Positions 24,796 through 28,287 of a stretch of 33,854 nucleotides of DNA are shown piece by piece. The stretch spans positions 68,254 to 102,107 of the forward strand of contig CAMOCC010000002.1 in NCBI GenBank assembly GCA_946610035.1. The letters run 5' to 3'. Below the pieces are notes generated by a model. It made no database searches and had not been told where the DNA came from. It saw only the letters and a list, made by a program, of their open reading frames with translations. How positions within the stretch are numbered: the first letter of the stretch is position 1; every line of letters begins with the position of its first letter. The position numbers and the translations under genes were made by a program. Origin of the DNA: an uncultured Verrucomicrobiota bacterium (lineage in GTDB: Bacteria > Verrucomicrobiota > Kiritimatiellia > RFP12 > UBA1067).

Positions 24796-24918
24796 ACTGC
24801 CACTCATCTCGCGAGCTGTCCTATGAAGGCCAGATAGGATTGTGTAATTGTGTAATTGTGGAATAGCGGAAATGTGTAATTGCCCTCTTCCCACTTCCCC
24901 ATTCCCCATTCCCGCGCT

Positions 24919-24947
24919 TGCCATTTTGAAGCGGAGTATGGTATAAT
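24919..24947 (+). promoter_or_regulatory. Strong promoter of the noncoding RNA / kinase leader
   Basis: TTGCCA (24919-24924), a 17-bp spacer and TATAAT (24942-24947), with TGG in the extended -10 position. This is the best sigma-70-like promoter of the window. No start codon with a long frame follows for about 400 bases. Confidence 0.75.
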
Positions 24948-24953
24948 AGCTTT

Positions 24954-25302
24954 GTCTTGCGGGTGACCGCATGACATTTGATCTTTGCCATACCGTCCGG
25001 CTCCGATGCCGGGCGGGCCGGTCGCCACCATGGTAGGGCGCTGATTCCAGCCGCGCCGCCTCCATGGGAGAGCGACAGAGAAACCGCCGCGCACGCGAAA
25101 GCGCGCCACCGGCGGGACGTACGCAACAGCGTATAGTAGCTTCGTAGAAAATACCGCTAATATTTCCTAATGCAGAAGCGAAATACGATGGTGCGTTGCG
25201 TGTGCAATCACACGCAGCGTACTTTCATATTCATGTTTCTGCATGGGCTCTTAGCGGTGCCTTCTACGAGACTGGATTTCGAGAGTGCGCCGCTCTTCTT
25301 TT
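24954..25302 (+). ncRNA. Candidate structured noncoding RNA (about 350 nt) of unknown family, or long 5' leader
   Basis: A promoter lies upstream and an intrinsic-terminator-like hairpin ends the region. Helices I can draw: GCGG/CCGC with a GTGA loop (24959-24970); GTCCGGC/GCCGGGC (24995-25014); CCGCCG/CGGCGG (25084-25115), enclosing CGC-GAAA-GCG; TACGC/GCGTA (25120-25133). A 128-nt irregular stem follows: 8 bp (25142-25149 with 25262-25269), 7 bp (25154-25160 with 25251-25257), 10 bp (25170-25179 with 25235-25244) and 15 bp (25190-25204 with 25209-25223, loop CAAT). Two hairpins close with GNRA tetraloops. It lacks the signatures of RNase P RNA, tmRNA and SRP RNA; a 6S-like role of the long stem is possible. 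It could instead be a regulated leader of the kinase gene. Confidence 0.6.
25281..25302 (+). terminator. Intrinsic terminator or attenuator after the structured RNA
   Basis: Stem AGAGTG/CGCTCT with one G-U pair and a three-base loop (25282-25296), followed by TCTTTT. The stem is short, so termination may be partial. It lies 58 bases before the kinase start codon. Confidence 0.5.
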
Positions 25303-25359
25303 GCCGCCGACGCGTTTCTCGCAACAAGTAGCGGCAGGGGAAGGGGGGCCAGGTAGGCA

Positions 25360-28287
25360 ATGAAGGAACTTGAAGACGGGTGTAGAATCGGTAGTTACCG
25401 AGTCATCCGCCTGCTCGGTAAGGGTGGGATGGGAGCGGTGTACGAGGTCGAGCATGTCGAGCTCGGCACACACTACGCCCTGAAGACTTTCACATACTCT
25501 GCCGATACGGACTACGGCGGTGTTCTGTTCGCCAAGTTCTGCGAGGAAGCCAAGATGCTCTCTCGCATCAGCCATCCTCGGGTTGCCCACGCCTTTGACC
25601 TCACTCACGATGCAGCGAATGGCATCATATACTACGTAATGGACCTTGTCCTCTACAAGGACGGCGAGTCGTACTCGCTCGAAGAGGTAGACCGCGAGTC
25701 GTTGAACGAAGACTTCGTGTACGGATGGTTCCGCGATGCATGCGAGGCCCTCGATTACATTCACTCCCTCGGCATCGTCCACCGCGATGTCAAGCTTGAG
25801 AACTTCCTGCTCGACGCCGACAAGCATGTTGTCCTGGCGGACTTCGGCGTCTCTCGCATCTTCGGTGCGAGCATGAAGGAGGATGTAGCCCCGTACAAGA
25901 CGATGCGCATCAAGCGCAATGGCATGACGGAGAAGGTTGTGCTCGGCAGCGACCACTATATTGCTCCGGAAGTCATGGCAGGGCGCGATGCAACACCGGC
26001 GGCAGATGCCTACGGTCTTGGCGTGATGATGTTCAAACTTTTCACCGACAAGTGGGCGGACGACATGTCCGCAGCGCAGGTCGACGCATTCCTGCACGGC
26101 TACAAGTACCGCTGGTATAAAGTGGTGCCATTGCTTCTAGAGTTCGATCCCGCGAAGCGACCTACGCGTCTCGTCGACCTTTTGCCACTTCTGGAACGAG
26201 CGCCGGAGCCTGCGCCCATCCAGGAGGCGCGGCCGGCGAAGGACGGCGGAACACGACGTAAGAATCTTGTAGCCGCAGCAGTCGGGTTGGCGGTTGCCGC
26301 CCTCTGCGCCGTTGGTTACATTGGCTGGCGGCAGATGGAGAGGAGAAATGCCGAGCGCGAACATGCGTTACAGCTTCAAATTGCCGAAGCGAAGAAAGTT
26401 GCCGCCGCGGAAGCCGAGAAGGCGCGCCTTGCCGTCGAGAATGCCAAGAAGGAGGGCGAGGCGAAGAGAGCCGCCGCCGCGGAAGCCGAGAAGGCGCGCC
26501 TTGCTGCCGAAAATGCCAAGAAGGAGGCTGAGGCGAAGATAGTCGCGGCTGCGGAAGCCGAGAAGGCGCGCCTTGCTGCTGAAAATGCCAGGAAGGAGGC
26601 TGAGGCGAAGCGCGTCGCCGAAGAGAAATACAAGGCCGAGGTGGAGGCGCGGCGCAAGGCGGAGGAAACGAGCGAGAAGCCCGATCTCGCGCAGTCGCCC
26701 TCGTCGTCTGAGTCCAATGCAATCCCGACTGACAGAGAGGTCAAGGCCATTCGGCCGAAGATAGAGGAGCTGGTGCAGGATGACCTCGCCGCACTAAAGG
26801 CGGGGAAGAAATCTCACGTTGAAACAGCTGATGCTCTGCTCGGCTACATTGGACCGAACGACGAAGCCGCCGCGAAGTTCGTGTTTCGCCAGATGGCATT
26901 TCGCCAGTATGTCGCCGGTGCGGCATTCGACAGGGCGGACGAGCTTTATTCCGCGCTCCGCAGCGAAATCGGCGTCGAGTACGCGCTCGGCGTCGTTGCG
27001 GACTCGCGGCAGCGGCTGAACAAACCCGCCGCGCGCGCTCTCAAAGACCGCATCTCGGCTGACGAGAGGACGATAAGGGAACTTGCCGCCATAAAGGCGA
27101 AGATCGCGAAGTTGCCGAAGGACGCGCGGCTCCGCGAACAGCTTGCACTCGCTTACGTGGCGAACGGAGACTGGGAGTCGGCGCTGCAGGCGTTTCGCGA
27201 CTGCTCCGGTGAGGTCGCCAAGATCGCCGGATGGGAGCTGAGCGACGAGAAGAGCGGTGACTTCGATGCGGCGAAGGTGGCGCGGTTCTGGTGGGCGTTC
27301 GCAGAGGGTAAATCCGGTCGGCGGCAGTTGGCTGAGAGCGTAAAGGCGCATGCTGTTTACTGGTACAAAGTGGCTATCGCGCTGAATCTGCTCACTGGAC
27401 TCGATGCCAAGGTAGCGAACCACCGCATAGAGGAAGTCGAATCGGCCGTCGAATCATCAAATGCGCAGCCACTTGTGAAAGGGCGCTCAAAGAAGGGATT
27501 TTACATGATTGTCGACCTGACTAGATCAGGGAAAAACTGGGCGATTTCCTATCTCGACGGAATACCTAAAGGCGGCTGGAGCGACGAGTTCAAGACGAAG
27601 AAAATTGTCCTGCGCAGAATTGCGCCCGGCTCGTTCGAGTATAAGCCCGGAAAGTCAATCAAGATAACCAAGCCGTTTTACATCGGTGTATTCGAGGTCA
27701 CGCAGAAGCAGTATGAGATGACAATGAAGACGAACCCCTCCGAGTTCAAAGGCGACATGCGACCCGTCGAGAGGGTGAGCTACTTCGACATTCGCGGGCG
27801 CGACAAGGGAATGCACTGGCCGAAGGACAACGAAGTCGACGAAGATTCGTACATAGGGAAGATGAGAAAACGTTTCGGGTTGGAGTTCGACCTGCCGACC
27901 GAGGCGCAGTGGGAGTATGCCTGCCGCGCCGGCACGACGGGCGATTTCAATGTAAAAGGGGCCGAAATTGGCAAACTTGGGAAGTACATAGGTAACGGCG
28001 GGCCAGACGACAATCATGTGAAGGTCGGCAGTTTCATGCCGAACAAATGGGGACTTTACGATATGCATGGCAATGTGTGGGAATTGTGCAAGGATTTGTG
28101 GGGAAGCTATCCGGCTAGCGAGACCGACCCCATAGGGCCAAAGTGGAACGGCGGCGGCACCCGTGTCCACCGCGGCGGCAGCTGGAATCGTGATGCGGGT
28201 GCTTGCCGTTCTCAGTGGCACGGCTATGTTCGCCCGCAGGATGGCCACGCCGATGGCGGTTTCCGCCTTTGTTGTCCCGCAGAATAA
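25360..28287 (+). CDS. Membrane Ser/Thr protein kinase with coiled coil and C-terminal SUMF/FGE-like domain
   Basis: A protein of 975 residues. The kinase (about 10-275) has all active motifs: glycine loop GKGGMG (20-25), K42, H141-R142-D143, D161-F-G, and APE in YIAPEVMAG. One membrane segment follows (about 303-325, VAAAVGLAVAALCAVGYIGW). Then comes an Ala/Glu/Lys coiled coil built of three 24-residue repeats, a helical middle region, and from about residue 750 a formylglycine-generating-enzyme-like domain (FYIGVFEVTQKQYE, LPTEAQWEYACRAG, GLYDMHGNVWELCKD, GGSWNRDAG, GGFRLCC). Kinase-SUMF fusions are known in the PVC group, including chlamydial Pkn1. The catalytic cysteine pattern of true FGE is not evident, so the domain is probably a ligand-binding or structural lectin-like fold. 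The start ATG 25360 has only a G-rich upstream stretch (AGGGGGG). Confidence 0.9.
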   Translation: MKELEDGCRIGSYRVIRLLGKGGMGAVYEVEHVELGTHYALKTFTYSADTDYGGVLFAKFCEEAKMLSRISHPRVAHAFDLTHDAANGIIYYVMDLVLYKDGESYSLEEVDRESLNEDFVYGWFRDACEALDYIHSLGIVHRDVKLENFLLDADKHVVLADFGVSRIFGASMKEDVAPYKTMRIKRNGMTEKVVLGSDHYIAPEVMAGRDATPAADAYGLGVMMFKLFTDKWADDMSAAQVDAFLHGYKYRWYKVVPLLLEFDPAKRPTRLVDLLPLLERAPEPAPIQEARPAKDGGTRRKNLVAAAVGLAVAALCAVGYIGWRQMERRNAEREHALQLQIAEAKKVAAAEAEKARLAVENAKKEGEAKRAAAAEAEKARLAAENAKKEAEAKIVAAAEAEKARLAAENARKEAEAKRVAEEKYKAEVEARRKAEETSEKPDLAQSPSSSESNAIPTDREVKAIRPKIEELVQDDLAALKAGKKSHVETADALLGYIGPNDEAAAKFVFRQMAFRQYVAGAAFDRADELYSALRSEIGVEYALGVVADSRQRLNKPAARALKDRISADERTIRELAAIKAKIAKLPKDARLREQLALAYVANGDWESALQAFRDCSGEVAKIAGWELSDEKSGDFDAAKVARFWWAFAEGKSGRRQLAESVKAHAVYWYKVAIALNLLTGLDAKVANHRIEEVESAVESSNAQPLVKGRSKKGFYMIVDLTRSGKNWAISYLDGIPKGGWSDEFKTKKIVLRRIAPGSFEYKPGKSIKITKPFYIGVFEVTQKQYEMTMKTNPSEFKGDMRPVERVSYFDIRGRDKGMHWPKDNEVDEDSYIGKMRKRFGLEFDLPTEAQWEYACRAGTTGDFNVKGAEIGKLGKYIGNGGPDDNHVKVGSFMPNKWGLYDMHGNVWELCKDLWGSYPASETDPIGPKWNGGGTRVHRGGSWNRDAGACRSQWHGYVRPQDGHADGGFRLCCPAE
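26401..26616 (+). repeat. Three 72-base tandem repeats coding the kinase coiled coil
   Basis: Units start at 26401, 26473 and 26545. Each encodes a 24-residue piece of the form AAAEAEKARLAAENAKKEAEAK plus two variable residues. Near-identity at the DNA level indicates recent duplication, so copy number may vary between strains. Confidence 0.85.

Follow-up and report, generated by a model that had tools for sequence, protein, structure and literature searches.

An RNA family with two mutually exclusive, covarying folds before diverse genes of Verrucomicrobiota, a candidate transcription attenuator

Transcription attenuators and transcriptional riboswitches, such as the T-box and the trp leader, occupy the 5' leader of a gene, where antiterminator and intrinsic-terminator helices exclude each other, a U-rich tract follows and the gene lies close downstream. 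Accessory operons can carry leaders for processive antitermination instead, as with ops/RfaH, LoaP, EAR and the put RNA. In Enterobacteria, the boxA consensus is given as GYTCTTTAANA, and boxA is reported also to control suhB and a toxin gene (PMC5725501). Here we analyze a structured RNA stretch of about 350 nt upstream of a protein kinase gene in a 33,854-nt segment (hereafter the window) of contig CAMOCC010000002.1 from an uncultured Verrucomicrobiota bacterium of the class Kiritimatiellia. The stretch resembles attenuators and transcriptional riboswitches in its leader position, exclusive helices, terminator shape, U-rich tract and close downstream gene, but differs from the T-box and the trp leader in lacking an Rfam match, in having no shared pathway among its downstream genes and in carrying a boxA-like motif upstream in many copies of the order. 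As with ops/RfaH, LoaP, EAR and the put RNA, its copies are cis elements before varied accessory genes, though no sequence or structure family in Rfam is shared with them. A boxA-like site in the leader of a non-rRNA gene is also found in the suhB 5' untranslated region and before a ParE-like toxin gene; in these enterobacterial cases boxA lies near the gene start (PMC5725501), whereas here it heads a structured leader of ~350 nt that ends in the putative switch.

A multi-copy RNA family placed before genes

The stretch in the window is one copy of a multi-copy RNA family rather than the orphan RNA that the original prediction had supposed. The family has apparently not been described before, as searches of open-licence PMC full text, which do not extend to subscription journals or preprints, turned up no account of a comparable RNA from this phylum. 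A blastn-type search with positions 24920–25359 matched 20 of 58 relatives, several of them at more than one place, and all matches fell within the window's own genus (20/35 genomes, its own included, compared to 0/23 others). We then used covariance models. The first, R1, was built from an alignment of 23 copies and holds only the helices Pa and P1–P4; 92.4% of cells in these helices were paired and 19 of 36 pairs had changed on both sides, compared to 13.7 in shuffles. Scanned across the genus at E 0.001, R1 matched 52 of 61 genomes (10/10 of the better genomes); across the order at E 0.01, it matched 117 of 161 (37/48 of the better ones; 21/33 genera), with up to 15 matches in a single genome. 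The second model, R2, was built from 82 strong copies scoring 134 bits or more and at E 1e-6 matched 162 of the 345 genomes scanned in the class and 82 of 387 in a sample of the phylum; at least 20 of these 82 genomes are listed as outside the class, where the matches were weaker. Since few candidates were scored per genome, these tallies are lower bounds for strong matches, while those at E 0.001–0.01 include matches of 40–50 bits, which in the looser scans may include chance palindromes. Weak matches near 40 bits also appeared on the reverse strand of true copies because the P3–P4 stem is palindromic; these were not counted as copies, and near-palindromic or antisense rows (4 of 86 matches and one row of 38.8 bits) were dropped before counting.

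The core of the other 81 strong copies is 59–87% identical to that of the window, which marks them as old paralogues rather than products of recent transposition. An exact core pattern was present in 49 named GTDB contigs, most of them titled Kiritimatiellae, Verrucomicrobia, Lentisphaerae or 'uncultured bacterium' and derived from ruminant and other gut samples. A further 61 copies are divergent; of these, 10 belong to the window's order, 34 to other parts of the class and 17 to lineages outside the class. We rejected a phage or plasmid element as the source of the RNA: viral contigs gave 0 exact matches of one core pattern, and plasmid and phage collections gave no blastn match of 24940–25310, although diverged copies could escape both searches and are not excluded.

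Several individual copies deserve mention. One contig with the exact core pattern is titled as a Clostridia bacterium (L114) and is probably a mislabelled metagenome-assembled genome. The window's own genome holds a divergent 55-bit copy on contig C1 (L241, 460–633) which by eye keeps all helices of the long stem fold described below. Two identical copies of leader and gene start lie 12.8 kb apart in L225 (452–630 and 13274–13452) with an integrase-like open reading frame (ORF), assigned by eye, between them, pointing to a recent segmental duplication or an element.

The RNA lies 5' of and close to an ORF on the same strand: 80 of 82 strong copies have a downstream ORF of at least 50 aa, whose start follows the model end by a median of 49 nt and falls 30–60 nt from it in 51 of the 80; the two not counted are L188, where the contig ends, and the second copy in L179, which has no ORF. 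In the divergent copies the median distance is 33 nt, and 41 of 61 ORFs start within 60 nt. The downstream products are very diverse (80 proteins forming 51 clusters) and share no pathway. Some of these genes are of restriction-modification, DISARM-like or BREX-like type; a defence regulon was nevertheless rejected and no enrichment is claimed, as 77 control ORFs of the same loci matched PADLOC comparably (95 families for these controls compared to 116, counted as families rather than members among the matches listed), with the caveat that some of these neighbouring control ORFs may share an operon with the downstream genes. Separately, in the wider class (L228, L247 and L263; L225, L226, L248–L252 and L256), small helix-turn-helix proteins and a large secreted family with a DVYDLEQYF motif were seen by eye to recur downstream.

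Two folds that share a strand

The structure of the stretch is confirmed to be real and far beyond chance, because its helices are kept and covary in relatives. The predicted fold of 24955–25302 reached -166.5 kcal/mol compared to -122.6 (standard deviation 5.1) in 100 shuffles, none of which did as well (z -8.6), and contains small hairpins with GTGA and GAAA loops together with a long irregular stem. The helices, GNRA loops and long stem of the original prediction therefore hold, and the covariation test that it had suggested gave a positive result.

Two alternative sets of helices were recovered from the 82 strong copies (Table 1). Fold A, made up of Pa and the long irregular stem P1–P4, had 95.4% of its cells paired, 29 of 43 pairs changed on both sides and a covariation of 0.481 compared to 0.198 in shuffles, a signal that collapsed when partners were slid by one column. 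When columns were scanned for pairing without bias, P5, P6, Pb and H2 emerged as well; they belong to a second arrangement, fold T, in which the two halves of the core form separate hairpins. Fold T had 92.0% of cells paired in the same alignment, 24 of 40 pairs changed on both sides and a covariation of 0.292 compared to 0.210 in shuffles; for P5 alone, pairing rose to 96.8%, and changes on both sides were seen in 8 of its 13 pairs. None of Pb, H2, P5, P6 and P7 is part of R1 or R2, and it was R1 that made the 82-copy alignment. RNAalifold on the first alignment had found P5 and missed P1–P3, whose strands MAFFT had misplaced; model-based realignment recovered them.

The two folds exclude each other because P5 uses 25214–25226, partly the 3' strand of P4, so that P4 and P5 share 25214–25222. 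P2 (CCGCTAA/TTAGCGG) is paired in 99.8% of cells, and in fold T one of its strands becomes the loop of H2 and the other that of P7; the same strands could thus form a loop-loop contact in fold T and a helix in fold A. P5 is followed by a conserved T-rich tract (mean 6.7 T in 9 nt over the 82 copies), so the family combines a conserved terminator-like helix and U-rich tract with a second conserved fold that excludes that helix. The terminator originally proposed for the window is therefore right in its T-rich tail (25294–25302) and wrong in its helix: what is conserved is not the small GAGTGCGCCGCTC hairpin but the long-range pairing 25214–25226/25281–25293. A terminator scan restricted to loops of 3–8 nt listed the P4 hairpin and not the long-range P5.

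Within fold T, P7 and P5 stay complementary in the divergent copies too. P7 forms 3 of 3 pairs in 49 of 61 of them, whereas 1000 partner shuffles averaged 22.3 and never exceeded 33; the pairs vary among GGC/GCC, GGG/CCC, GGU/ACC and GGA/UCC. P5 complementarity is likewise partner-specific (14.77 compared to 11.59, standard deviation 0.30, and a maximum of 12.43 in 200 reshuffles), and a run of at least 5 T follows in 52 of 61 copies. H2 forms 4 of 4 pairs in 55 of 61 copies, which proves little given that these pairs are mostly A against U. Regarding stability, forced fold A was more stable than forced fold T in 70 of 82 strong copies, by a mean of 6.3 kcal/mol, and more stable than the two halves folded apart in 57 of 61 divergent copies.

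Table 1. Features of the RNA and its surroundings, in window coordinates
Feature	Position	Strand	Remarks
Sigma-70 type promoter	24918..24947	+	TTGCCA-18 nt-TATAAT, TG before -10 (extended -10)
5' hairpin with GTGA loop	24955..24974	+	before boxA-like motif; from fold and sequence
boxA-like motif	24980..24991	+	GATCTTTGCCAT
5' domain, class I	24980..25118	+	aligned with 12 others of its class
Hairpin insertion in 5' domain	25032..25060	+	similar to repetitive extragenic palindromes (REP-like), in a loop of the RNA
Conserved core of the family, ~190 nt	25119..25309	+	183 bits with models R1 and R2
Pa hairpin	25120..25133	+	TACG/CGTA
Fold T, first hairpin	25139..25179	+	Pb 25139-25143/25175-25179; H2 25148-25153/25161-25165; loop CCGCTAA
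Fold A, long irregular stem P1-P4	25140..25270	+	the long stem of the original prediction
P1 (fold A)	25140-25149/25262-25270	+	
P2 (fold A)	25154-25160/25251-25257	+	
P3 (fold A)	25170-25178/25236-25244	+	
P4 (fold A)	25191-25204/25209-25222	+	
Fold T, terminator-like hairpin P5-P6-P7	25214..25293	+	loop holds TTAGCGG; excludes P4
P5 (fold T)	25214-25226/25281-25293	+	
P6 (fold T)	25230-25238/25269-25276	+	
P7 (fold T)	25245-25248/25259-25262	+	
U-rich tract after P5	25294..25302	+	TCTTCTTTT
Small hairpin P8	25302..25336	+	TGCCGC/GCGGCA, before start codon; by eye
Downstream gene, 975 aa	25360..28287	+	protein kinase domain and C-terminal FGE-sulfatase (SUMF1-like) domain

The boxA-like motif, the 5' domain and the window locus

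Upstream of the core, GNTCTTT occurs within 80–300 nt in 69 of the 79 readable copies of the order, compared to an expectation of 3.3 and at most 8 in 200 Markov shuffles, and a stricter boxA motif in 59 of 79 compared to 4.8 expected (3 of 82 copies with short or N-filled upstream sequence were left out). The motif resembles the boxA of local rRNA leaders: the window has GATCTTTGCCAT, and the rRNA leaders have GATCTTTGAAAA and similar sequences. No 16S gene was found in the window's own genome, so relatives were used for this comparison, 16S being found in 12 of 106 genomes of the bacterial family. Their 16S leaders carry promoter, hairpin and boxA in the same order as here, with GNTCTTTGA in 6 of 9 readable leaders and GNTCTGTGA in 3 of 9; they differ in what follows, which is 16S rRNA there and the two-fold core with mRNA genes here. 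Although common, boxA does not belong to the core shared by all copies. L034 and L143, which stand directly after another ORF, by eye have a boxA-like motif without an evident promoter.

The 5' domains between motif and core are of several sorts, a rough sorting giving four classes of 15, 40, 4 and 9 copies with 14 unsorted. An alignment of 13 class I copies, including the window and leaving out L032 and L183, showed invariant GTCGC and GCGAC strands with varied hairpin insertions between them. One such insertion in the window, at 25032–25060, recurs elsewhere in its own genome and genus at 89–97% identity. At L015/L030 (G008:C167), L006/L029 (G011:C217) and L012 (G004:C8) we saw promoter-bearing 5' domains without a core, or partial tandem copies; standing before other genes, these look like decayed or rearranged leaders.

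Other parts of the original prediction for the window locus also stood. The extended -10 promoter has TG and TATAAT and 11 of 12 consensus matches, with 1 found compared to 0.3 expected in shuffles; it would place the transcription start near 24954. The ~350 bases were said to have no coding frame, and the ORF listing, which covers frames of at least 80 aa, contains none on the + strand between 24867 and 25359; a coding function was rejected for lack of a long frame. As for a leader peptide, the frame opened by the 5'-terminal ATG is by eye not conserved, no systematic search having been made. The kinase ATG at 25360 does lie 58 nt beyond 25302, and P8-like pairs before the start codon were seen by eye in other copies too.

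The family, which the original prediction had not recognized, has no Rfam 15 match at gathering score in the window, as the covariance-model search it had suggested showed; even up to E 10, 24900–25380 gave only 11 chance-like matches below threshold. Eight divergent loci run against Rfam 15 at gathering score gave only a tRNA fragment in L225. A retron or diversity-generating retroelement template RNA was considered because the kinase ends in an FGE-sulfatase domain, the end of which we take to resemble the variable proteins of diversity-generating retroelements; this was rejected, since a search for reverse transcriptases with PF00078 gave 0 matches in the window's own genome, which is 88% complete, and was positive in 3 of 14 control genomes.

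Weighing the explanations

We consider it probable that the stretch serves the kinase gene as its 5' leader and that the core of the stretch is a cis-acting transcription attenuator with two folds, joined to a boxA in most copies of the order. The original prediction had left the choice between an attenuated leader and a stand-alone RNA. The near-constant placement 5' of ORFs and the terminator-like helix excluding the long stem support the former; the latter is not favoured, although termination within the leader would likewise yield an RNA of ~350 nt. In the mechanism we propose, the nascent RNA would zip into P1–P4, masking the 5' strand of the terminator so that polymerase reads on. Alternatively, the halves would fold separately into the Pb–H2 hairpin and the P5–P6–P7 hairpin, the latter followed by the U-rich tract, and transcription would stop near 25302; the complementary loops of the two hairpins, CCGCTAA and TTAGCGG, may kiss. 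In most copies of the order an rRNA-type boxA would stand just after the transcription start, so that the polymerase crossing the leader is probably a Nus-modified one, which may determine how frequently fold A prevails. We infer accordingly, from sequence and structure, that the RNA is made, that boxA binds Nus factors, that fold T terminates and that fold A is the default, as well as the direction of control. Since fold A is the more stable, read-through is probably the default and termination would need a cause.

Several observations weigh against this attenuator reading. The need for a cause of termination is the weakest point of the mechanism, and the window copy itself favours fold A by 24 kcal/mol (-81.4 compared to -57.4). 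The covariation margin is smaller for fold T than for fold A, Pb and H2 are paired in only ~81% of cells, and most H2 pairs are A against U; in the window copy, P5 contains one A-C mismatch and H2 one A-A. In addition, the U tract is broken by C. Nor is boxA universal: GNTCTTT is absent from 10 of 79 copies of the order, and among the divergent copies it lies within 300 nt in only 13 of 61, in 8 of these 19–32 nt from the core.

A riboswitch, in which a small signal molecule bound by the core or by the 5' domain tips the same terminator/antiterminator switch, would have this architecture; several sorts of 5' domain stand on one common switch, and the loop residues between P3 and P4 are conserved. 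However, much of that loop can pair in divergent copies (by eye), the long 5' domain is mostly absent from the divergent copies listed, and the 80 downstream proteins fall into 51 clusters without a shared pathway; no ligand candidate emerged from downstream gene context, and we regard a riboswitch as unlikely. Somewhat less likely still is a constitutive leader in which boxA-modified polymerase simply crosses leader and gene, the core only protects or stabilizes the mRNA and P5–P7 is a packing helix rather than a terminator. The boxA statistics, the like layout of rRNA leaders and the strong preference for fold A fit such a leader well; it does not account for P5 and P7 being kept by compensatory change despite excluding P4, for the U-rich tract that follows, or for the lack of boxA in most divergent copies.

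We think it very improbable that the RNA is a free-standing regulator, 6S-like or trans-acting, that lies upstream of genes by chance. Its own promoter, terminator-like end and long stem of 6S-like shape would suit that role, but the ORF starts at a near-constant distance in 80 of 82 copies, several copies per genome stand before different genes, and 5 of 40 relatives, though not the window's own genome, have a separate 6S gene over the Rfam cut-off (one of them, G040, carries both RNAs). The likeness to 6S RNA is one of outline only, as had been predicted, since RF00013 was not among the 11 matches up to E 10; 6S RNA itself was rejected on the absent covariance-model match and the separate genes, and what it shares in outline with this multi-copy, leader-placed RNA is the long irregular stem.

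Returning to the attenuator, a more far-reaching form of it is that the RNA is a phylum-wide switch that senses not a metabolite but the condition of the transcription machinery. A polymerase that acquires its Nus modification at an rRNA-type boxA, or else some elongation factor, would decide between read-through and termination where a kissing contact is exchanged for an extended duplex, and dozens of unrelated accessory genes would come under common control. We offer this form tentatively and think it doubtful as a whole.

If the attenuator reading is true, one bistable leader RNA, present in several copies per genome, controls many unrelated accessory genes in an order of abundant, mostly uncultured gut bacteria, and the family extends sparsely across the phylum. 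Two folds, each with its own covariation and sharing one strand, would make it a good test case for co-transcriptional RNA folding. The genes would form a regulon under a structured RNA yet share no pathway. Because many copies are linked to an rRNA-type boxA, the system would also allow a direct test of whether mRNA genes are controlled by growth-linked Nus antitermination.
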